A DNA stretch of 29,755 nt from a virus. The stretch covers positions 1 to 29,755 of IMG/VR virus record IMGVR_UViG_3300049489_000838. One strand, 5' to 3'. Positions 3,307-27,692 of this stretch are shown here, piece after piece. The position numbers and the translations under genes are program-made. Under the pieces are notes generated by a model. That model ran no database searches. It saw only the letters and a program-made list of their open reading frames with translations, and was not told the origin of the DNA. Position 1 is the first letter of the stretch, and every line of letters begins with the position of its first letter.

Positions 3307-5196
3307 TTAAGCTACCTTATAATATAAAACAGGGCAAATAAGAGTTGATTGTGAGTTAGGCGCAGGGGCTGTTACGGGTAATGGGCCTGTTGGAAGAGCA
3401 TTCGTTTTGTATGATATTATATTACTTGATGTTTCTACATCACTACCTATATTATAAAACATGATTAATGATCCTGAACATGATCTAATTCCCACATTTG
3501 CTATATCAGATTGTACTACACCCCAATAGTAGTTTTTTTGTAAAAATACCGGAACTGATAATATCAACTTTTTAAAACCTGTAGTACCACTATCTATTTC
3601 ACCAAAATCCACATAAAGATTTGTAGGTAAGCCATTGCTATCGTTATATAAACCGCATCTTAGTTTACTTCCAGTTCCTAATGTTGTCACATCAAACGCT
3701 ATGGTAGTTATTGTAATATCTTCACGTATTTTTACTGGAAAATATACATATTCGGCAGTCGTGGTATTTGCAGAACCAGTTCCGTGTGCTTCCCATGATG
3801 GATACCATCTATTACTTCTATAACTGCTATATTTTTTAGCTTCTTCATTACCACCGTTTCCTGTTTCATCGGTGGCTGGTGCGTAAACAGTACCGTTGAA
3901 TTTTAATACTTGACCGTTAGTAGGTGATGTTGTACTTACTTCTATACCTTGTATTTGGTTAGCATTCCACTGTGCTGTTGTGTTTCCTACTTGTGCAGCA
4001 GTGGTGTTATGAGGATTAGAAGTATTTCCTGTGTGATTTGTCAAGTCTACGATCGCAGGTACACTTAACGCTGTTCTAGCTGTGGAAGCGGTTGTAGATC
4101 CGGTTCCACCTTTAGCAATGGGAACAGTGTTAATAGTCGGGTTGGGATATGTCCCACCCAAGTCGCCCCCTGCCGCACCCGATGGGGTTCTAGAATCGGA
4201 AAGTCTGCTATCAGTTGTCCCTACACCACCCAAAGTTGTTAAAGCTGCTGATGAGGTTGTTGAACCTGTTCCGCCTTTGTTAACTGGTAGAATACCACCA
4301 ATTGATCCTAAAGTTAGATTGGATTCATTTACATCTATGTCAATTTCATTATTAGTATTGTCAAGTGATATACCTATTTTATTCGAGGCGGCATTAATAT
4401 TTCTAAATTCTAGATTGACACCTGTTTTTTGTTTAAAAACTCCTGTTCCACCTACACCAACATTAGACGCTGTGTTTGTTTCTCCGCCACCACCTTCCGT
4501 TCCAGTGTCATCTGAAGCTGGTGCATAAACTGTGCCGTTGTATTTTAAAATTTGACCTGTTGTGGGTAAAGTTGTGCTAACTGCGATTCCTTGTATTTGG
4601 TTAGCGTTCCATTGCGCTGTGGTGTTACCCACTTGTACAGCAGTGGTGTTATGAGGATTAGAAGTATTTCCTGTGTGATTAGTAAGTGAAGTTAAATCAG
4701 CTTTAAACGATAGAGAAGCCGATACTTCTGATGCTAAAGGTACAATAGGATCACTTATCGTGGATGTGGTTTTTACTTTACCTGAGGTTGTAGATGATGC
4801 TATAGGTGTTCCACCTGATACTTCTATGTTTGCGATCGCATCATCTATATAATTTTGTAGAAATTGTAGAACGTTATTATATTCAGGATCATTTACCATT
4901 ATTTCAGATTCTCTTAAAACATTTAAATTTATATCATTTGTGCCTTCAGGCACAACAAAAGTTATTTTCTTGTTATCTGGTAATCTTAAAATATAATAAC
5001 CAGGATTCACACCAGTGTTGGGTGTCACTGGTATTGTTATTGACCCATTTTCACCAGTTCTATATAATTTTATCCATCCTGGATAATGGTTATTATTAGT
5101 ATCAAAAGTTCCATTAACCAGCGATATATATAGTGTAGTACCTACCCATGGTGTCCCATCACTATGTAAAATAGTTCCTACGATATTTCTTGTCAT
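3307..5196 (-). CDS. Tail fibre / receptor-binding protein
   Basis: About 629 aa when started at the ATG at 5196; a TTG 15 bases further out (5211) is an alternative. The N-terminal part (TRNIVGTILHSDGTPWVGT) is a compact domain that could attach to the baseplate. The middle has motifs common in phage fibres: KGGTGST twice, GGDLGGTYPNPTIN, and two copies of an NHTGNTSNPHNTT...WNANQIQGI module. The last 170 residues, beginning near KYSSYRSNRWYPSW, differ in character and are probably the receptor-binding head. The gene runs opposite to all other structural genes and is far from the baseplate cluster, together with the small gene after it. It is expressed from the divergent region at 5197-5250. 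Confidence 0.85.
   Translation of the reverse strand: MTRNIVGTILHSDGTPWVGTTLYISLVNGTFDTNNNHYPGWIKLYRTGENGSITIPVTPNTGVNPGYYILRLPDNKKITFVVPEGTNDINLNVLRESEIMVNDPEYNNVLQFLQNYIDDAIANIEVSGGTPIASSTTSGKVKTTSTISDPIVPLASEVSASLSFKADLTSLTNHTGNTSNPHNTTAVQVGNTTAQWNANQIQGIAVSTTLPTTGQILKYNGTVYAPASDDTGTEGGGGETNTASNVGVGGTGVFKQKTGVNLEFRNINAASNKIGISLDNTNNEIDIDVNESNLTLGSIGGILPVNKGGTGSTTSSAALTTLGGVGTTDSRLSDSRTPSGAAGGDLGGTYPNPTINTVPIAKGGTGSTTASTARTALSVPAIVDLTNHTGNTSNPHNTTAAQVGNTTAQWNANQIQGIEVSTTSPTNGQVLKFNGTVYAPATDETGNGGNEEAKKYSSYRSNRWYPSWEAHGTGSANTTTAEYVYFPVKIREDITITTIAFDVTTLGTGSKLRCGLYNDSNGLPTNLYVDFGEIDSGTTGFKKLILSVPVFLQKNYYWGVVQSDIANVGIRSCSGSLIMFYNIGSDVETSSNIISYKTNALPTGPLPVTAPAPNSQSTLICPVLYYKVA
3870..4680. repeat. 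In-frame direct repeat inside tail-fibre gene
   Basis: Two copies of a roughly 170-bp segment (about 3870-4038 and 4512-4680) are offset by 642 bases, a multiple of three. Their ends share an identical 43-bp stretch (3996-4038 and 4638-4680), while the rest has diverged. The duplication encodes the repeated NHTGNTSNPHNTT and NANQIQGI modules. Recombination between copies would delete 214 residues in frame. Confidence 0.85.
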
Positions 5197-5529: not shown

Positions 5530-7702
5530 TATTTGGATTACACAAATGGCTGAATTAGGAATGATTCAGCCATTTTCGCATAAACTTATCAGACAAGTTG
5601 AAGATCGTAAAATTATTTCTTGCGGTCTTTCTTCTTATGGCTATGATATTAGATTATCAAGCACCGAATTTTACACTTTTAAACATATTCCGGGTGAGAT
5701 AGTAGATCCGAAAAATTTCAATTATAAGCATTTAGAAAAATCTGAATCATATATAGATGAATCTGGGGAATATTTTATTATTCCTGGTAACTCTTACGGT
5801 TTAGGCGTGGCAGTGGAAAAACTGGAAATCCCTGATAACATAACTGTTATCGCGATCGGAAAATCAACTTATGCTCGTTGTTTTTCCGGTGAGACTAAAG
5901 TTAAATTGGTTGACGGTGATTACACTTTTTTAGAATTGATTGATCGTGCTAGTAAAGGTGATAGATTACTCGGATATGGTGTAAAAGACGGTCAAATTGT
6001 CATACAAGAATTACAAGATCCTAGATTTATCGAAAATTCAGGTTTAGTTAGAGTCACATTGGATGATAATAAATATTTCGATTGCACACCTGATCATAAA
6101 ATTCTACTTCGTAACGGTAATTGGGTAGAAGCTCAATATTTACAAAAACAAGATTCATTGCATCCCATATATCAGCATCACAATCATGGATATCCTGCTA
6201 TATTTGATAGCGTGAAAGCAGACAAACTCGAAAATAGAACGGAGAGTTTTAGTAATGTTCATCACATGGTTTGGGATAGATCGGCGTTTAGACGATTTCC
6301 TCATATAATAGAATCATTTAAAAATGGTGAACTTTGTCATAACCATAAAGTTGCAAGTGTCGAACATCTTCATACCATACAACCTACATACTGTTTAACC
6401 GCACCAGAAACCGGGAATTTTGCGTTGAGTGTCGGCGTTTTCGTTTCAAATTGCGGAATCATTGCAAATCTAACCCCCGGTGAAGCTTGCTTACATCCTG
6501 ATACTGAAGTTCTATCAAGGACGGGATGGAAAAAAATAGCTGATGTTTTAGTGGGAGAAGAAATTCTCAGCTTGAATGGGGAAACAGCAGAGTATCAAGC
6601 GGTTCAAGACTTCCATCGTTATTATTTTAATGGGGAATTATTAAACTTTGTAAGTAAATATGTCTCTCAATCTGTTACACCCCAGCATAAAGTCTGGGCT
6701 GCTATATCCAAGAAACGTGTTTTTGTCGAATCTGGGTATGCTTCAGGAAAACAAAAAGGAGTGCTTAGAGAGAAATCTATATTTTTTCCCTTTGAAAGAA
6801 TAGAAGCCCAAAAGATTTTCAAAAAACACAATCTTTATTTTTCTAGGGATGTCAATTGGAACGGATCTATTTTACCCGAAAATTCAATAATCGGTGATCA
6901 GGTTTTACCTACATCGGCATGGTTAAAATTTATCGGATGTTGGTTAGGTGATGGTTCAGCATTCGTTCAAGGAAAAGGTAATCATGTTATTAAACTTGCC
7001 GTTGTCACTAAAGAAAAGAAGCGAGATTATTTTAGAAAAGTTTTAACTGATTTAGGCGTGAATTTTTGGGAAGGTGCTAGCGGATTTGAATTCAGAAATA
7101 AATCTATTTGCTTGTTTTTGAAAACATGGTCAGGAGCGCATAATAAGCGTATCCCTAGACAATATATTGATCTCTGCCCAGATCAGTTGAAACTTATTCG
7201 AGAGGGAATGATGATGTCTGATGGAAACCTTGAATCTTCAACTTATGTGTCTGTAAGTAAAGGATTAATAGAAGATTTCCAAGAAATCTCTTTGAAGATA
7301 GGAGATAACACCTCTGTCTGGACGAAATTGAGTATAATTAATGATGGAAATGAGTTTCTTGCATATTGTTGTCGCTTCAGTGGTCGTAAAACAACCCCTT
7401 GTAAAATTTTACCAGTAAATTGTGAAAAAATTCCCTATACCGGATTTGTTTACGATTTGACCGTCCCTAGTCATGTGTTTCTTGTTCGACATAAAAATAA
7501 AGTTTCATGGACGGGTAACTCATGGAAAGGACATCTAACTTTAGAATTTTCCAATAGTTCACCAGCCGACTGTAAAATATATGCCAATGAAGGTGTGGTA
7601 CAACTCCTATTCTTTGAGGGAGAACCTTGTCAAACAACATACGATGATAGGAAAGGAAAATATCAAGATCAACCGGAAAAAGTAACTATAGCCAGATTAT
7701 AG
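5516..7702 (+). CDS. dcd: dCTP deaminase interrupted by two inteins
   Basis: The 728-aa precursor carries three extein pieces: residues 1-121, 313-324 and 669-728, which splice to a 193-aa dCTP deaminase, the normal size. The enzyme converts dCTP to dUTP for thymidylate synthesis (some relatives also make dUMP). The family segment GKSTYAR (115-121) supplies the Ser and Arg equivalent to E. coli Ser111 and Arg115, and HLTLEFSN (673-680) supplies the catalytic Glu677. Intein 1 sits directly after Arg121 and intein 2 a few residues before the Glu motif, so the unspliced protein cannot have an active site. The reading frame is open throughout, which argues against disruption or sequencing error. 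It overlaps the upstream small membrane-protein gene and ends at the first TAAAGTGACTTTA palindrome. Confidence 0.93.
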   Translation: MIKNDIWITQMAELGMIQPFSHKLIRQVEDRKIISCGLSSYGYDIRLSSTEFYTFKHIPGEIVDPKNFNYKHLEKSESYIDESGEYFIIPGNSYGLGVAVEKLEIPDNITVIAIGKSTYARCFSGETKVKLVDGDYTFLELIDRASKGDRLLGYGVKDGQIVIQELQDPRFIENSGLVRVTLDDNKYFDCTPDHKILLRNGNWVEAQYLQKQDSLHPIYQHHNHGYPAIFDSVKADKLENRTESFSNVHHMVWDRSAFRRFPHIIESFKNGELCHNHKVASVEHLHTIQPTYCLTAPETGNFALSVGVFVSNCGIIANLTPGEACLHPDTEVLSRTGWKKIADVLVGEEILSLNGETAEYQAVQDFHRYYFNGELLNFVSKYVSQSVTPQHKVWAAISKKRVFVESGYASGKQKGVLREKSIFFPFERIEAQKIFKKHNLYFSRDVNWNGSILPENSIIGDQVLPTSAWLKFIGCWLGDGSAFVQGKGNHVIKLAVVTKEKKRDYFRKVLTDLGVNFWEGASGFEFRNKSICLFLKTWSGAHNKRIPRQYIDLCPDQLKLIREGMMMSDGNLESSTYVSVSKGLIEDFQEISLKIGDNTSVWTKLSIINDGNEFLAYCCRFSGRKTTPCKILPVNCEKIPYTGFVYDLTVPSHVFLVRHKNKVSWTGNSWKGHLTLEFSNSSPADCKIYANEGVVQLLFFEGEPCQTTYDDRKGKYQDQPEKVTIARL
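5879..6451 (+). mobile_element. Intein 1 in dCTP deaminase (191 aa, no LAGLIDADG seen)
   Basis: Cys122 to Asn312. Block A is CFSGETKVKLVDG; block B contains TPDHK (191-195) after FDC; block F is NFALSVGVFVSN at the C-terminal end. The +1 extein residue is Cys313. The penultimate residue is Ser rather than the usual His before the terminal Asn, a tolerated variant in some inteins. A linker of some 60-70 residues (about 215-278, containing HHMVWDRSAF) replaces a homing-endonuclease domain; it may be a degenerate HNH-like insert, but I cannot identify a catalytic motif. Confidence 0.88.
6488..7519 (+). mobile_element. Intein 2 in dCTP deaminase with LAGLIDADG-type endonuclease
   Basis: Cys325 to Asn668 (344 aa). 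Block A is CLHPDTEVLSRTGWKKI; block B is SVTPQHKVWA. Two LAGLIDADG-like helices are visible, FIGCWLGDGSAF (472-483) and LIREGMMMSDGNLES (560-574), so a homing endonuclease of the DOD type is probably present. The end reads VYDLTVPSHVFLVRHKN...WTGN with Gly instead of His before the terminal Asn. The +1 extein residue is Ser669. Only a 12-residue extein segment (CGIIANLTPGEA) separates it from intein 1. Confidence 0.9.
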
Positions 7703-12673: not shown

Positions 12674-14047
12674 ATGACTCCGGGGAAAGATTTTGCTATT
12701 GTCGATCGTTACCATCCCAAACAGGGAAATATTGTGCATCGCGGGATAAAAGGTGTTCAAAATAGTATTTTGGTGTGCGGAAGAGGTTGGGGTAAAAGTA
12801 TCTGTGGTAGGGGTATCATTTATACAACCGCCATTGATTATCAAGGTGCTAGACCACCTAGAAGCAAAGCTAAAATGTATAACGTGATTGCTATGCCATT
12901 CCTGAACCAAGCTAAAAAAATTCATTGGTCGCCACTAGAGTATCTTTTTACTGAAACTGATTTATCTAGACTTGTGAAGAACATCAATCGTGCAGAAGGT
13001 ACTATTGATTTAATAGGGGATTTACCGGGAATTGCGCTGGCAGGACTCAATGATGATGGAGGTAACAAAATAAGGGGCTGGGCTGTTCCTAGAATCGTCA
13101 TAGATGAAGCACAGGACGTTAATAATCTTATAGGCATTTGGTCGTCATTAAAACCCGCCGTTGATAGATGTTTGGGTAGTGTTTTCATGTCGGGAACACC
13201 TAAAGGTAAAGGAACGATGTTCCATCGTTTCTGTAAAGACATGATTGTACAGAAATGGAAATATTACCACTATCACACCAAAGATAACCCATTTCTACCA
13301 GACATCGATAGAGTTTTAGCTGAAGCAAAAGCTATGCTGACTGATAGGGAATACCGCGCCGAGTATGAAGCATCATGGGAAGATTTCCCTGGACAAATTT
13401 TCGATAAATTGGATAAGCATCATGTCTTATCTCCGGAGTTATTCCCAAGCACTTTTGATAGTGTTGTCATGGGTGTAGATTGGGGTGACATACACCCAGC
13501 TTGTGCAATTGTTGGTATTAGAGATTTTCCTTACAAATACTATGTAATTGATTACTGGGAAGGTAATCCTGGTGATACTAGCAACTCAATTTTATTTGAT
13601 GATTTTAAGAATAAATGTGGCGAGCTTTGTAATCGTTATGGGGTGCATAGTACATACCCGGACGTGTTCCAGCCGGGGAATGTGAATTATATTTATGAAT
13701 TTCTAAATAGTGATTATGAAGGGATGAAAAATATTGTAGTTCCTCATAGCAACGACTATACCCGTATGCGATCGCTCAAAGTCATGCCTTCACTCTCAGT
13801 CATGAATAGACTATTTTCACAAAACCGTTTATTTATTCATAAAGGGCTTGAGAATCAATTTAGAGCAATTGTTAGAAAACAAGATAAAATCTCCGGTGCT
13901 TTTATCGATGAAGTAGATAAAAATACTGGGGTATTTCACGTGACAGACTCTGCACGCTACGCAATTAATAATATAGAAGCAGCAATGCAGATATATTATG
14001 GATATAATCAACAATCCTATAGTCCATTTTCTGCTGACTCCGGGTGA
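12674..14047 (+). CDS. terL: Terminase large subunit
   Basis: The packaging motor and headful/site-specific nuclease. Walker A VCGRGWGKS (34-42), Walker B IVIDEAQD (141-148), coupling motif SGTPKG (173-178) and the nuclease domain beginning VMGVDWGDIHPACAIVG (265-281, Asp269) are all visible; length 457 aa is typical. The ATG start lies in the dispersed repeat (ATGACTCCGGGG, 12674-12685), so the first residues MTPG are encoded by the repeat. The stop lies in the next repeat hairpin (14035-14064). Confidence 0.95.
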   Translation: MTPGKDFAIVDRYHPKQGNIVHRGIKGVQNSILVCGRGWGKSICGRGIIYTTAIDYQGARPPRSKAKMYNVIAMPFLNQAKKIHWSPLEYLFTETDLSRLVKNINRAEGTIDLIGDLPGIALAGLNDDGGNKIRGWAVPRIVIDEAQDVNNLIGIWSSLKPAVDRCLGSVFMSGTPKGKGTMFHRFCKDMIVQKWKYYHYHTKDNPFLPDIDRVLAEAKAMLTDREYRAEYEASWEDFPGQIFDKLDKHHVLSPELFPSTFDSVVMGVDWGDIHPACAIVGIRDFPYKYYVIDYWEGNPGDTSNSILFDDFKNKCGELCNRYGVHSTYPDVFQPGNVNYIYEFLNSDYEGMKNIVVPHSNDYTRMRSLKVMPSLSVMNRLFSQNRLFIHKGLENQFRAIVRKQDKISGAFIDEVDKNTGVFHVTDSARYAINNIEAAMQIYYGYNQQSYSPFSADSG

Positions 14048-14064
14048 AGATTGCCCCGGAGTCA
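14035..14064 (+). terminator. Repeat hairpin across the terL stop codon
   Basis: 10-bp arms (TGACTCCGGG 14035-14044, CCCGGAGTCA 14055-14064), loop 10, with the terL stop in the loop. No U run follows, so it may be an attenuator or RNA-processing structure rather than a full terminator. Confidence 0.55.
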
Positions 14065-18706: not shown

Positions 18707-18748
18707 AACATGACTCCGGGGGTTTTCCGTATCACCCGGAGTCATGTT
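18707..18748 (+). terminator. Repeat hairpin, terminator-like, after DGQHR gene
   Basis: 14-bp perfect arms (18707-18720 AACATGACTCCGGG, 18735-18748) around a 14-base loop. A -10-like TATAAT (18748-18753) begins inside the 3' arm, so the same stretch may both end one transcript and start the next. Confidence 0.65.
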
Positions 18749-21253: not shown

Positions 21254-22780
21254 ATGGCTAATTTTCTTAATGGTGTGAATATCGGAACTCCCGGTGCTTA
21301 TGCCTTTTACACAGCTACCCAATCAAGACCTGTAGATATACAACCTTTTAGAACTTGTTATCTAGTAGGTTTTAGTGGGACTGGTGCAACATCTACTAAA
21401 AATAAACCTACACGTGTATCATCGCTAGCGGATTTTAGCAATATCTATGGTACATCTGCAAGCACAGATAATGTAAGATTATTTTTTGATAATTCTGAAG
21501 GATATGGAAATCTATATTTTGTTAACGTTGCGATCCCTGTCCAGTATGATGTTGACATCTTAAACACTACAGCTGGATCATATCCCATCACTATTAATGG
21601 TGTCACTAAAACTTTAGTGGTGACTGGTACACCTACAATAACCGAAATCTGTAATAATTTTATTGCGTTAATAAATGCCGATGTAATTCTAAATAAAGAG
21701 GTTTCGGCATTTATCGATCCTGAAGATAATACTATCGTTATTCTGAAAGCGAAAAACCCATTGCAAACATTGACCGTCAGTGAAAGTAATGCGTTAATGG
21801 CTGCTGTAGTTTCCACACCTCCATCACCTAGCTATACAGACTACGTTTACACCATACAAAATGCTTTCGATCCTACTCTGGAAGCGGGTTTTGTGTGCGC
21901 TCCCGAAGCTTTTTCTTCATTCCTTAAAAGTGATAGGTTAAGTGTTCAAGTTGCTCTAGAAAACCTAGCAAGCGGTTCTCGTTATCAATGGGTTGCGCTA
22001 ATTGACCCGGGGACACACACAGAAATTACTAATCCTGATAGAGCGATCGCGGAAGCCGCTACTTACACATCTGCACAGGGGCATAGTTGCTATTACTACC
22101 CTTATGTCGTGAATCTAACGAATGTTAAAATTCCGCCTAGTACAGGTATTGCCGGCTTGGCGTTGCTTAGATATGTTCGAGATGGTTTTGAAGAACCACC
22201 AGCAGGTGCTTTGTACCCTCTTAAAGGTGTGAAAGATGTTGCTTATCAAACCTCATGGTCTGAACAAAACGTTGCTAACCCTGAAGGTGTTAACATCATT
22301 CTAAATAAACCTAATTATGGGATTGTGGTTTGGGGAGCTAGAACACTGTCGGCAGATCCTCTATTAGTTTTTCTCAATACCAGAGTGATCTTAAACATCA
22401 TCATCAATAGCCTTTATCGTGGTTTTGATTTTGAAATTTTCTCGGCTATTGGAGGAACTGGTGCGGTGTTAAACAATATCCAAAGAAAAGCGATTAACTT
22501 GCTCAATACTTTCTGGCAATCAGGGTTGCTATACGGAGCATCACCACAAGAAGCTTATGCTGTTCTAGGTGACACATCAGTGCAAGTACCAGCTTTATTA
22601 CAACAAGGTATAGCCAATTTATTTGTATGGGTTGTTCCAGCAACTTTATTGGAAAGATTGATGATTAATATCAAACAAACAGCTATAGGTGATCTTCAAA
22701 TCACTGTTGCTAGTGACACAACAGCTTTACAAGATTCTGTTAGCAGTGGTGAAGTTAGTGACAGTGTAACAGCACCATAA
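21254..22780 (+). CDS. Tail sheath protein
   Basis: A 508-aa contractile sheath protein. The N-terminal GTPGAYAFYTATQS...CYLVGFSGTG...KPTRVSSLADFSNIYG pattern and the C-terminal block IQRKAINLLNTFWQSGLLYGASPQEAYAVLGD (near residues 400-435) match the sheath family. The sheath contracts and drives the tube through the cell envelope, defining this as a myovirus-type phage. It precedes the tail-tube gene, and a degenerate repeat hairpin lies between them. Confidence 0.92.
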   Translation: MANFLNGVNIGTPGAYAFYTATQSRPVDIQPFRTCYLVGFSGTGATSTKNKPTRVSSLADFSNIYGTSASTDNVRLFFDNSEGYGNLYFVNVAIPVQYDVDILNTTAGSYPITINGVTKTLVVTGTPTITEICNNFIALINADVILNKEVSAFIDPEDNTIVILKAKNPLQTLTVSESNALMAAVVSTPPSPSYTDYVYTIQNAFDPTLEAGFVCAPEAFSSFLKSDRLSVQVALENLASGSRYQWVALIDPGTHTEITNPDRAIAEAATYTSAQGHSCYYYPYVVNLTNVKIPPSTGIAGLALLRYVRDGFEEPPAGALYPLKGVKDVAYQTSWSEQNVANPEGVNIILNKPNYGIVVWGARTLSADPLLVFLNTRVILNIIINSLYRGFDFEIFSAIGGTGAVLNNIQRKAINLLNTFWQSGLLYGASPQEAYAVLGDTSVQVPALLQQGIANLFVWVVPATLLERLMINIKQTAIGDLQITVASDTTALQDSVSSGEVSDSVTAP

Positions 22781-22862: not shown

Positions 22863-23381
22863 ATGGCGGTCACAAGACAAAAACAACCTTTTTCTGTTAA
22901 TAGTTATGGTGTAACACTAAATATCGGAAGTGCCATCAATTCGTCTTATTGGTCTAAGTGTAGTAAAATTGAAAAAACATATGAAACTTCTGATTATTCC
23001 GATGGTCAAACTAACATAATTTATAAATTACCAGGAGGTGTCAGATTTACCGATATCACATTGAGTAAACCTTTCACAGAAGATGATGCTGAACTTTTTA
23101 CAGAATTACTTAAAGTCAATTCTGAAAGAAAATTCATAGAAGCTTTTATACAACCGATGTATAGAGACGGTTATTATAGCCAAAACATAGGCGGCGTTGT
23201 TATAGCTCAATTCTGCGTAGTTGTTTCAGCATCACTTATAAGTGAAATTGACACGGGCGGAAATTCTCCTACCATGTTGGAAACTGTTTTATCACCGGGT
23301 TATATTTCTTCCCAAGGTTCAACAATCTGGTGGAGAGAACCTGATTTACAGACAATTACCACGGGAACTAATGGTGCTTAG
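22863..23381 (+). CDS. Tail tube protein
   Basis: A 172-aa protein next to the sheath gene, in the usual sheath-tube order and of the usual tube size. The pattern TYETSDYSDGQTNIIYKLPGGVRFTDITLSKPFTEDDAELFTEL resembles the contractile-tail tube family (T4 gp19-like). Preceded by AGAAGGA about 8 bases before the ATG. Its stop codon (TAG, 23379-23381) ends exactly where the IscB-associated RNA region begins, so the element is inserted at the very end of this gene. Confidence 0.85.
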   Translation: MAVTRQKQPFSVNSYGVTLNIGSAINSSYWSKCSKIEKTYETSDYSDGQTNIIYKLPGGVRFTDITLSKPFTEDDAELFTELLKVNSERKFIEAFIQPMYRDGYYSQNIGGVVIAQFCVVVSASLISEIDTGGNSPTMLETVLSPGYISSQGSTIWWREPDLQTITTGTNGA

Positions 23382-23618
23382 TCAGTAACTCAGCCCTAAA
23401 GGGACTGAGCTTGTAAGAGAAATCAAACAAGCTGTACTGACCAGTCTAAGTCTTAGCTGACTACGTTTTTTGAGTCATGACACCCTGTGGATGCGTAGCT
23501 AGTCCCCTGCTCTGTCATTTGCAATTAAACAGTTTTAAAGTCACTGAAACAGTGTTGCAAATCGAAAAAGCTCTTAAAACATTGACGAAGCTAACATTAC
23601 CCAGAAATGGAGGGACTT
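23381..23618 (+). ncRNA. Predicted omega-RNA (guide RNA) of IscB
   Basis: The 237 bases between the tube stop and the IscB start are structured. An outer stem GTCAGTA/TACTGAC (23381-23387, 23435-23441) encloses two hairpins: CTCAG...CTGAG (23389-23409) and GCTTGT/ACAAGC (23409-23414, 23427-23432). Further 3' are GACTACG/CGTAG (23459-23465, 23494-23498) and a long stem ATTTGCAA/TTGCAAAT (23517-23524, 23555-23562) enclosing CACTG-AAA-CAGTG (23542-23554). In known IscB systems such RNA lies directly upstream of iscB, with the guide at its 5' end taken from flanking DNA; here that flank is the last bases of the tail-tube gene (about 23365-23380). Identification is from position and folding, not from a covariance model. 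Confidence 0.75.
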
Positions 23619-24902
23619 ATGTCCAAAATATTTGTTTTAGATACAAACAAAAAACCATTAGACCCAATTCACCCAGCACAAGCTAGACAATTGTTACGAA
23701 ACAAAAAAGCAGCAATCCTCAGAAGGTTTCCGTTCACAATCATTTTGAAAGAACCATCCCCTGATACACCACATCTCCTTTTGAGATTAAAGGTTGACCC
23801 TGGTGCAAAATATACAGGGGTTGCTTTGGTCAACGATTCTACAGGAGAGGTTGTATTTGCTGCTGAGTTAAAGCATAGAGGTTTTGCAATTCGAGATGCT
23901 TTGACATCCAGGAGACAATTAAGAAGAAGTAGACGTGCGAGAAAAACTCGTTACAGAAAACCACGATTTTTAAATAGAACACGTCCAGATGGATGGTTAG
24001 CACCTAGCCTACAAAGTCGCATTGAAAATATCAAAGCTTGGGTTGAAAAATTACGCAAACTTGCACCAATTGCAGCAATTAGCCAAGAGTTAGTTCGCTT
24101 TGATATGCAGCTAATGCGTAATTCAGATATTCAAGGTAAAGAGTATCAACAAGGTACTCTTGCTGGCTATGAAACTAGGGAATTTTTACTAGAAAAATGG
24201 GGTAGACAATGCGCTTATTGTGGTGTTAAAGATGTTCCTTTACAGGTTGAACACATTCACCCGCGCTCTAAAGGGGGTAGTAATTCGATTACAAATCTGA
24301 CTCTAAGTTGCGAAAAATGTAATACCAAAAAAGGGACTAAAGATATTAAAGACTACCTCAAAAAAGACCCATCTAAACTATCAAAAATCTTGGCACAAGC
24401 TAAAAGACCCTTAGCTGATGCAGCAGCAGTAAACACAACCAGATTTGCATTACTGGAAGTTTTAAAGAAAACTGGACTACCTGTAGAAACGGGTTCAGGA
24501 GGTTTAACAAAGTATAATCGCAGTCAACAGAAATTAGATAAAACTCATTGGCTTGATGCTGCTTGTGTTGGTACGTCAACGCCAATTCTCAAAATTAAAG
24601 GTATTAAGCCATTGTTAATTACAGCTAACGGTCACGGTTCAAGACAGTCATGTAGGACTGATAGATTTGGTTTTGCTTCGCGGTATGTTCCAAGATTCAA
24701 ATTTGTCAAAGGTTTTCAGACGGGCGACATCGTAAGAGCCGTTGTTACTAATGGTAAAAAAGTAGGCGAATATGTTGGAAGAATTGCAACTCGTTCGACA
24801 GGAAGTTTTAATATATCAACTAAGAATGGATTGGTTCAAGGAATTAGCTACAAAGCTTGTACGCACATACATAGAAAAGATGGATATAACTACTCAACTT
24901 AG
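23619..24902 (+). CDS. iscB: RNA-guided endonuclease IscB
   Basis: A 427-aa IscB, the ancestor-type relative of Cas9, which uses an omega-RNA to cut DNA. Order of parts: PLMP domain (residues 1-45, NKKPLDPIHPAQARQLL), RuvC-I VDPGAKYTGVAL with Asp60, arginine-rich bridge helix (98-122), RuvC-II SQELVRF with Glu157, an HNH domain (198-248) with zinc cysteines CAYC and CEKC, VEHIHPRSKGGS containing His212, and Asn226/Asn235, RuvC-III THWLDAA with His310 and Asp313, and a C-terminal domain with GFQTGDIVRAVV and GSFNI. All catalytic residues expected of both nuclease sites are present, so it looks active. Start chosen at 23619 because GGAGGG lies 5 bases upstream; an in-frame ATG 12 bases earlier would include that sequence. 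Confidence 0.93.
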   Translation: MSKIFVLDTNKKPLDPIHPAQARQLLRNKKAAILRRFPFTIILKEPSPDTPHLLLRLKVDPGAKYTGVALVNDSTGEVVFAAELKHRGFAIRDALTSRRQLRRSRRARKTRYRKPRFLNRTRPDGWLAPSLQSRIENIKAWVEKLRKLAPIAAISQELVRFDMQLMRNSDIQGKEYQQGTLAGYETREFLLEKWGRQCAYCGVKDVPLQVEHIHPRSKGGSNSITNLTLSCEKCNTKKGTKDIKDYLKKDPSKLSKILAQAKRPLADAAAVNTTRFALLEVLKKTGLPVETGSGGLTKYNRSQQKLDKTHWLDAACVGTSTPILKIKGIKPLLITANGHGSRQSCRTDRFGFASRYVPRFKFVKGFQTGDIVRAVVTNGKKVGEYVGRIATRSTGSFNISTKNGLVQGISYKACTHIHRKDGYNYST

Positions 24903-24985: not shown

Positions 24986-25399
24986 ATGAAAATTAAAACA
25001 CAACAAGATGTTTTTCCAATTGAACTAGAAGATACTAATATCACTGATCAAGAACCGGAAATAGTAGGACAAAGAGAAGTAGAAAACATCAAAGTCGATG
25101 AGGTATTGACCCCTAGTGGTAAGGAAGCAATTTCTTTTATATCACCTATTACTCAATATGAAATTATCATCCTTAAACCATCTACCAGGGACATGATAAA
25201 CATCGAAAGAGATATGAAAAAATACCATAAAGACGGAGGGAACTTTGAAAATGCAGTGGTAATGATTACACATCTACTTGTAGGTTACGGTGATAAACGA
25301 GGCGAAAAAATTTACAGTTTTAATAAAGTCATAGACACATTTAAACTGGAAGAGGTTATGCTGATAACTTCTATTTTAACTGAAGTTTTTTTCTCGTAG
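24986..25399 (+). CDS. Tail assembly chaperone, short product
   Basis: A 137-aa protein directly upstream of the tape-measure gene, in the position of lambda gpG-type chaperones that hold the tape measure during tail assembly. It has a charged, disordered N-terminus (DVFPIELEDTNITDQEPE...) and a helical C-terminal part ending EEVMLITSILTEVFFS. The 3' end carries TTTTTTC (25387-25393), a slippery heptamer in the correct frame (T TTT TTC). A shift of -1 there gives the longer product described next. The start codon follows the IscB element's right end. Confidence 0.75.
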   Translation: MKIKTQQDVFPIELEDTNITDQEPEIVGQREVENIKVDEVLTPSGKEAISFISPITQYEIIILKPSTRDMINIERDMKKYHKDGGNFENAVVMITHLLVGYGDKRGEKIYSFNKVIDTFKLEEVMLITSILTEVFFS

Positions 25400-25614
25400 G
25401 ATACTGTGATGAACCAGACGTGATAATGGTTAATGGCGATCCAGTAGAACTCAAAAGACTTGTGAAAAACATACTTTCTATATGTGGAGGTAATTACACT
25501 GAAACGTTTTATAGAATGATGTTAGAACCTCTTGAATCGATTAATTATTATATAGAAGTATTTAATGATTATCAAAAAGAGGTTTCAGAATCGATGAAAA
25601 AAAAATCTGAATGA
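24986..25614 (+). CDS. Tail assembly chaperone, -1 frameshift fusion product
   Basis: Predicted product of programmed -1 slippage at 25387-25393: residues up to about 136 from the first frame, then LVGYCDEPDVIMVNGDPVELKR onward from the -1 frame to the stop at 25612-25614, about 209 aa in total. The -1 frame is open through the junction, and the downstream frame has only a GTG (25420) and no convincing ribosome-binding site of its own, which fits the frameshift model. Its C-terminal part is the gpT-like extension that contacts the tape measure. The G/GT pair is conserved in long-tailed phages in this exact location. Confidence 0.72.
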
Positions 25615-25646
25615 TGACTCCGGGGGGAGAAATTCCCCGGAGTCAT
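25614..25646 (+). terminator. Terminator-like repeat hairpin before tape measure
   Basis: Perfect 12-bp arms ATGACTCCGGGG (25614-25625) and CCCCGGAGTCAT (25635-25646), loop 9, followed by TTTTATAAA. It starts at the stop of the frameshift product and lies 27 bases before the tape-measure ATG, so it may act as an attenuator between chaperone and tape measure. Confidence 0.7.
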
Positions 25647-25673: not shown

Positions 25674-27692
25674 ATGGCTAATAGGAATATATCTATTAAT
25701 CTCCAATTACTGACAGGCACTTTTAACAGTCAGATGGATAATTTCATGAATGGTTTCAATAACCGTTTTAGAAATTTTAATCAGGATTTAACAAACTCTT
25801 TCTTTGGTTCTAACGGCGCATTTAGTATGTCGTTATGGGATCAAGCCTTTGATACTATCTATTATTTAGGTGTGAGAGCTTTTAGAGCTATTGGTGATGA
25901 AATAGGAAGAGCTATAGATTATCAAAACGACTTAATAAGTACAGCTTCTGCCTATCAAGGTTTATTGAATATATCTTTTGGTGAAGCTGAAAAACTAGCA
26001 AAACGATCTAACATAATTTTCCAATCTCAAAACGCATCTTTACCTTTTCAACAATTAGGTTCACAGTTTCGAGCCGCTTATGGAGATGACATCTTAAGTG
26101 CATTATATGATAAAGATAATATTGATGGGTCGTTATCACGAACCGCCACCATGATAGGTAGATTACAAGTATTAATGGGCAGTATTAGCGGTGTAACAAA
26201 TTATCAACGAGCATCATTTCTGAGCAATGCTTTAAGTAGTGACTATAAACATTTAAATAGGCTGGAAGTATTAAGAAACTCTCCTCAAATGTCACGCGCT
26301 TTCAATCAAGAAGTAGCTAACGTTGGTGGTGTTGACATATTCAATAAATTAGATAGGAATGAAAGAATAAAACTCTTGGAACGTGTAGCCAACGCTGCAA
26401 TCAGTGAAGATGTTATAAGTGCTTATAGTAATAGTTTAGGCGGCATTTTTAGCCGGATCATGTTACAATTTTTCGGTGATATAGGAATATTTTCTTTTAC
26501 AAGAGAAATATTTGGGGAAGCTGATAACAACGTCATATCATCTTTAACCGGATTGTTTAAAGAATTGTTCAATCCTAGAGGAATTTTTGGGTTATTTTTT
26601 CAGTTTTTAAAAGGTGTTGCGGACGGTTTTCTAATCACTCTTAAAACAGCAATGGATGTTGCTGTAATCGTGCTGAAGCCATTAAATATGCTTGCTATGG
26701 TGTTATCACCTTTAGCACCACTTGTCTATGGCTTGAGTACAGCTTTGACTGTATTGGCGACTATAGGACTAGCAAAAGCAACAGCTTCAACAATTGCTAA
26801 TATTGCTACTAATGGTGTAGGGGGAATTCTAGGCAGGGTAGGTTTAGGTTTTTTAGCACCGGGGGCAGGTGTTATTGGTAGTATGATAAATCCTGCTAAC
26901 ATCATGAAAGGGTTAGGGGGATTAATATCGTCTGGTTCTACTACAGTTGTTAATGGTTTCTTAGGTTTAGGAGCTGGCATAAAAGCCTTTAGCACTAGTT
27001 TAGTAGCATTAGCCGCCAATCCTGTGTTTTGGGTAGTAGCCGGGGTTGTAGGGGCGATTGCACTGGCAGGTTATACGATGTGGAAATACTGGAAGCCATT
27101 AGGAATGTTTTTTAATGGTTTCTGGGAAGGATTCCTGGAAGGATTAGAACCTGCCAGTTTAATGATGGACGGTTTCAATGAAGTCCTGGTGATGATAGGC
27201 AAATCGCTATCACCCATTGCTGACGGTTTTGATTCAATTTTCAGTTCTATGAAACCTGTTCTAGATGCGATCGCCACATTCTTTAATTTGCAACAGGAGG
27301 AAGGAAGTAGAGAGAATTTTGATGCAGGTAAGGCTATAGGTAAAGGTGCAGGTAATATAGTCAAATTTGGTGTAGGAGGATTACTAACAAATCCACTAAT
27401 AAATCCCTTTCACGCGTTTTTTAAATTCCCCTCTTTCGCTTCTGGAAATGATCCTTATGGTTTCATGGATGCTGTTAACCGGGAATCTAGAGCCATGCCG
27501 ACAGGCTCTAAACTAGCACTAGCCAATAATAGTGAAATGATTATCCCCCGGAGTCAACAAGGGATAATGGGTAATAATTATAGTTTTAATCCCACAGTGA
27601 TAGTAAACGGAAACAGCAATGCAAATATAGCAAACGATGTCACAAACGCGTTAAATATTTGGTGGCAACAAGCTAAACTCGAAAACATCTAA
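25674..27692 (+). CDS. Tail tape measure protein
   Basis: A 672-aa protein after the chaperones, in the tape-measure position. Long helical N-terminal part, then a hydrophobic middle with several membrane-like stretches (LNMLAMVLSPLAPLVYGLSTALTVLATIGLAK split over about 335-370; AANPVFWVVAGVVGAIALAGY near 450-470), and a Ser/Gly/Asn-rich end. Tape measures set tail length and line the tube lumen; the hydrophobic segments help DNA cross the membrane. Moderate length suggests a fairly short tail. A dispersed-repeat copy at 27544-27556 encodes IPRSQ. Confidence 0.8.
   Translation: MANRNISINLQLLTGTFNSQMDNFMNGFNNRFRNFNQDLTNSFFGSNGAFSMSLWDQAFDTIYYLGVRAFRAIGDEIGRAIDYQNDLISTASAYQGLLNISFGEAEKLAKRSNIIFQSQNASLPFQQLGSQFRAAYGDDILSALYDKDNIDGSLSRTATMIGRLQVLMGSISGVTNYQRASFLSNALSSDYKHLNRLEVLRNSPQMSRAFNQEVANVGGVDIFNKLDRNERIKLLERVANAAISEDVISAYSNSLGGIFSRIMLQFFGDIGIFSFTREIFGEADNNVISSLTGLFKELFNPRGIFGLFFQFLKGVADGFLITLKTAMDVAVIVLKPLNMLAMVLSPLAPLVYGLSTALTVLATIGLAKATASTIANIATNGVGGILGRVGLGFLAPGAGVIGSMINPANIMKGLGGLISSGSTTVVNGFLGLGAGIKAFSTSLVALAANPVFWVVAGVVGAIALAGYTMWKYWKPLGMFFNGFWEGFLEGLEPASLMMDGFNEVLVMIGKSLSPIADGFDSIFSSMKPVLDAIATFFNLQQEEGSRENFDAGKAIGKGAGNIVKFGVGGLLTNPLINPFHAFFKFPSFASGNDPYGFMDAVNRESRAMPTGSKLALANNSEMIIPRSQQGIMGNNYSFNPTVIVNGNSNANIANDVTNALNIWWQQAKLENI

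Follow-up and report, generated by a model that had tools for sequence, protein, structure and literature searches.

In the model for the phage lambda tail assembly chaperones G and GT, the tape measure is bound by G, and tube subunits are brought in through the T part (PMC5009743, the portion available). The same portion describes tail chaperone shifts of −1, −2 or +1 among different phages. The E/E+E' pair of phage P2 lies between the tube and tape measure genes and is read with a −1 shift at a T-run heptamer close to where the first gene stops. In the P2 record the −1 site is marked in E, where T TTT TTG occurs in phase. In the available part of PMC3931495, the run T7G is predicted in phage Smp131 and T7C in P2-like prophages.

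The locus described here lies in a viral contig of 29,755 nucleotides (IMG/VR record IMGVR_UViG_3300049489_000838); this whole stretch is called the window. When the tail sheath of the window was compared with 50,697 phage records, 26 matched at E 1e-3, and seven of these fell at 60–80% identity. The seven are Anabaena phages A-1(L), Elbi and YongM2, Nostoc phages A1, N1 and YongM, and Dolichospermum phage Dfl-JY23, with sheath identities to the window of 61–64%. A1 equals A-1(L) at the junction studied and was dropped from the count there, leaving six distinct relatives. Matches to 14 of the 16 window proteins queried were located in the first 20 kb of A-1(L). By protein comparison, the window is a relative of the Anabaena/Nostoc myophages A-1(L), N1 and Elbi. 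It belongs to a contractile-tailed phage, and its relatives, some of which have the laboratory strain Anabaena PCC 7120 as host, point to a probable host among the filamentous cyanobacteria.

Further relatives were sought in several collections. Protein, alignment and pattern scans of viral contigs returned a single one, IMGVR_UViG_3300047556_000057, which carries the same T7C run as the window. Alignment of the sheath to genome contigs gave no relatives, and the plasmid collection held distant sheaths only, none with 80% query coverage. A G alignment against 388 genomes from the order of Nostoc linckia found none in a set that held no known positive, and this result shows little. In the S-TIM5 region, neither a chaperone nor a tape measure is annotated. 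A sheath tree had little resolution and was left unused.

Table 1. Features of the tail region of the window (coordinates from the first base of the window).
Feature	Position	Strand	Basis
Tail sheath gene	21254–22780	+	tail sheath PHROGs
Tail tube gene	22863–23381	+	phrog_35249, E 1.7e-60
G (137 aa, zero frame), upstream portion of the tail assembly chaperone	24986–25399	+	phrog_38331, E 1.3e-34
T, −1 frame, open from just ahead of the heptamer to its stop	25384–25614	+	phrog_30247, E 3e-10
Slippery heptamer T TTT TTC, in phase for a −1 shift	25387–25393	+	sequence
Zero-frame stop TAG, one codon past the heptamer	25397–25399	+	sequence
Hairpin between the T stop and the tape measure start, stem common to relatives; no part in the shift	25616–25644	+	sequence
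Tape measure protein gene	25674–27692	+	phrog_32306 tail protein, E 3.6e-194; phrog_28 tape measure, E 3.2e-14

Two overlapping frames, G and T, sit downstream of the tail tube gene and immediately ahead of the tape measure gene (Table 1). The first-pass annotation, which was made from the letters of the window, had recognized in them the conserved G/GT arrangement that precedes the tape measure. This is supported by a homologous G and T in the same place, between tube and tape measure, in each of the seven related records. G homologues reach E 8e-18 or better in all seven, and ten further matches are all at E 0.2 or worse. The T region was found in the same seven (tblastn E 8e-5 to 0.6) and matched nowhere else. 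The seven are also the only tape measure matches with at least 80% coverage, at a coverage of 99%. Both halves of the window pair thus have the homology and position of the A-1(L)-like chaperones, in which phrog_38331 occurs with phrog_30247. The T frame of the window is intact and keeps the residues that are invariant across seven aligned sequences.

The annotation of the pair differs from record to record. G is called a tail assembly chaperone in three of the seven (Elbi, YongM2 and A-1(L)) and hypothetical in the other four, and the name used here for G rests on that annotation and on position. T is a separate gene in five of the seven records, the YongM record has none, and in the Elbi record a joined chaperone appears as a CDS. 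In Nostoc phage YongM, we noted an open and unannotated T frame at 3907–4143. Because both halves are homologous ahead of the tape measure in all seven records, and because a joined chaperone is annotated in Elbi, the G/GT interpretation of the pair is supported, with the fusion as a putative product. The pair shares with lambda G/GT its layout and the proposed two-product mechanism (PMC5009743, in part). The G proteins of the window and the six relatives gave no candidate against PF10109 (Phage_TAC_7), unlike those of P2 and Mu, which match it, and hmmscan of the seven G proteins detected no PF10109 match either. Membership in the P2 E/Mu gp41 chaperones was rejected for want of a profile match. 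A structure of G predicted from one sequence had a mean pLDDT of 55.7, too weak for use.

The window also has an insertion between tube and G. A HEARO RNA (RF02033, 153 bits) occupies 23381–23600 and is followed by an RRXRR/HNH gene at 23607–24902 (PF14239, E 2.2e-70; PF01844), which is of the IscB kind. The tube-to-G gap of the six distinct relatives is 3 to 61 bases long and lacks this insertion. Relatives of the HNH gene occur in many cyanobacterial genomes, with identity up to 84% among the best 80 of 132 confirmed matches.

The G frame begins at an ATG and ends GAA GTT TTT TTC TCG TAG, so that the heptamer T TTT TTC stands in the correct phase with one codon, TCG, between it and the zero-frame stop. 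The sequence, phase and position reported for the heptamer in the first-pass annotation are right, and the −1 frame is open across it as claimed, for 75 codons from the heptamer and 64 from GTG 25420. Its predicted junction peptide, FFLVGYCDEP, is what the −1 frame reads. The lambda slip sequence differs from this one. By analogy, the window site would work as that of P2 does, T-run slip sites being a known type, although the stop in P2 lies further downstream of the heptamer. No Shine–Dalgarno-like stimulator was seen by eye near the slip site. Folding of 25394–25500 gave no sign of a structural stimulator on the 3' side: 121 of 200 shuffled sequences folded equally well (z 0.25).

By itself, the heptamer is only modest evidence. 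Across 26 chosen ORFs with 7216 in-phase positions, 52 positions carry an in-phase heptamer of the form X XXY YYZ (Y = A or T), and 16 carry T6N or A6N. When the codons of G were shuffled 20,000 times, 5.0% of the shuffles placed some in-phase heptamer inside the overlap that is open in −1, which is why we grade the heptamer alone so low. Of the in-phase heptamers in the 27 ORFs listed, this one is followed by the longest open frame in −1, with 75 codons against 56 for the second longest. It is the homology of the −1 frame, to phrog_30247 and to the T region of all seven related records, that raises the case above chance.

An in-phase A AAA AAA was also observed at 1790–1796 of the window, 3 bases ahead of the end of ORF 1413–1799. 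The −1 frame there is open for 56 codons, and the neighbour is the overlapping ORF 1750–2763. This could be another shift site, or chance.

When the junctions of the relatives were aligned, the six distinct relatives all had T in the +1 frame of G, which is reached by a +1 or a −2 shift, at GAA TTT TTT CGG. These codons are identical in all six, and the codon that follows has four forms. Such conservation is uncommon in G, where one codon is kept in just 16 of the 54 columns with an invariant amino acid. CGG makes up 12 of 203 arginine codons in 16 structural genes from four of these phages, and a rare codon after TTT fits the general model of a forward slip (PMC10885494, the portion available). 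The window is without the GAA TTT TTT CGG site and has T in the −1 frame, a difference that concerns mechanism and not homology. By alignment, 83 bases separate the conserved GAA from the conserved T block in the window, against 85 in Elbi. The junction is two bases shorter in the window, so T falls in the −1 frame, and the place of the +1 site of the relatives is taken by a canonical −1 heptamer. The direction of the shift has thus apparently changed between orthologous chaperones. No paper on frameshifting in these cyanophages was found among the portions of the literature results examined. The word "frameshift" is absent from the main text of PMC10966104, PMC4916379 and PMC9382816, and the Elbi announcement (PMC8297451) contains no discussion of frameshifting. 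A change of direction inside one clade of orthologous chaperones is not mentioned in the parts of the literature available. A parallel is described in the available portion of PMC5009743 for the related Trichomonas vaginalis viruses 1 and 2–4, whose shifts are −2 and −1, respectively, and serve the same purpose; unlike the window, these are RNA viruses of a protozoan, with other proteins.

The distant Leptolyngbya phage Lbo402-yong5 bears on which frame is older. Behind its annotated tail assembly chaperone lies an unannotated +1 frame at 7213–7458 that is open across AAA TTT CGC. In a single hhalign comparison, this frame matched the family T profile at 89% (E 2.3e-6), and its first start is GTG 7408, downstream of the conserved block. 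It is likely a missed chaperone extension. The G of Lbo402-yong5 reached an hhalign probability of 0.6% against the family with no convincing alignment, and neither its G nor its T matches the PHROG of the family. The comparison suggests, weakly, that the +1 state is older than the −1 state, and it is kept tentative because that G fails to align convincingly and neither half matches the PHROG of the family. We lean, with some reserve, towards a switch within the clade in which a +1 (or −2) shift at TTT CG(G/C), the earlier state, gave way to a canonical −1 shift at T TTT TTC by a net change of two bases, with G, T, their order and presumably the product ratio kept.

The −1 assignment hinges on the length of one T run, and this is its chief caveat. 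If this run had been miscounted in assembly, the true T frame would be +1, as it is in the six distinct relatives, and the frame of the window does depend on a single homopolymer. The one contig that agrees with the window, IMGVR_UViG_3300047556_000057, may share its site or its data, but it has different ends and is identical to the window over 13,022 shared bases. The matches of the 14 window proteins to A-1(L) run in one piece and one frame through nine other runs of 7–8 bases, two of which sit near an alignment start. Moreover, the TTT CGG context of the relatives is missing from the window at any run length. A miscount is unlikely, and the evidence favours a real change, short of proof. 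Decay of the junction, with T no longer expressed here, could also account for the loss of the site that is invariant in the family; an intact T frame with its invariant residues and a canonical heptamer inside the short overlap make this extremely improbable.

Two other readings accept the frame as it stands and dispense with a ribosomal slip. T might be translated independently from GTG 25420 or ATG 25426, both of which precede the T block conserved in the family. The first-pass annotation described the −1 frame as having no good start. There is indeed no ATG, GTG or TTG in that frame before GTG 25420, a fair observation but a weak claim. The sole Shine–Dalgarno-like sequence 5' of the two codons is GTGA, 10 and 16 bases off, and a clear core is missing from several other genes of the window as well, so that its absence here counts for little against an internal start. 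This absence elsewhere, together with an ATG, GTG or TTG in the T frame near the junction of all six distinct relatives, has added weight to translation from an internal start, as does the annotation of T as its own gene in five records. Against it, the position of the start codon is not conserved among the six relatives while their slip-site codons are invariant, and in Lbo402-yong5 T has no start before one that lies past its conserved block. We regard independent translation as quite unlikely. Slippage of RNA polymerase on the T run would also yield a fusion, and the genomic frame would then be free to vary. According to the available part of PMC3711429, orthologues that use ribosomal frameshifting conserve the direction of the shift and those that use transcriptional realignment do not, and here the direction differs. 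Runs of 6–7 are short for slippage, for which runs of 9 are cited (PMC5009743, in part), and the longest T run in the Lbo402-yong5 overlap is 3. In the relatives, the run is flanked by an invariant GAA and CGG, which slippage should not need. Polymerase slippage is therefore judged very improbable.

The hairpin between T and the tape measure gene is a dispersed element of these genomes. A perfect hairpin of the form GACTCCGG(N4-20)CCGGAGTC occurs in the window at 14036–14063 and 18712–18743 in addition to the copy in Table 1. Elbi has seven copies, YongM2 five, YongM and A-1(L) four each and Dfl-JY23 two, and none was found in N1 or in Lbo402-yong5. N1 carries eleven copies of GATTCCGG(N4-20)CCGGAATC instead, a form with no copy in the other eight records searched. 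It seems that the stem was changed throughout the N1 genome without loss of pairing. The G gene of N1 contains one of the N1 copies, and a copy in the window overlaps terL at its end. Of 11 copies read from five sources, ATTTTA follows each of the 5 located at the GT/tape-measure junction, and no T run follows the remaining 6. The hairpins are thus not simply terminators and are perhaps a small mobile or protein-recognised element.

Ribosomal frameshifting at the heptamer is the reading we consider likely: the locus would be the G/GT pair of an A-1(L)-like myophage, in which an occasional −1 slip produces a G–T fusion, T being reached in the relatives by a +1 (or −2) shift at a different site. 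Most ribosomes would translate G and terminate at 25397. A minority, with tRNA-Phe on TTT TTC, would slip back one base, re-pair on TTT TTT and continue with CTC GTA GGA, giving a fusion of about 209 residues with its end at 25614. If lambda is a guide, G would bind to the tape measure, and tube subunits would be recruited through the T part of G–T. The junction would then have changed its shift direction and retained its two-product layout.

The locus adds one more clear case of a widely conserved phage device. If the switch of direction is true, it would be an exception to the reported rule of conserved shift direction among orthologues with ribosomal frameshifting (PMC3711429, in part), and it would suggest that selection acts on the product ratio and not on the mechanism. 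If the frame difference is real, the window and its relatives provide two homologous chaperone junctions, a compact pair made by nature with −1 in one and +1/−2 in the other, in which a change of direction can be tested; the same pair also probes whether selection maintains the G:GT ratio.
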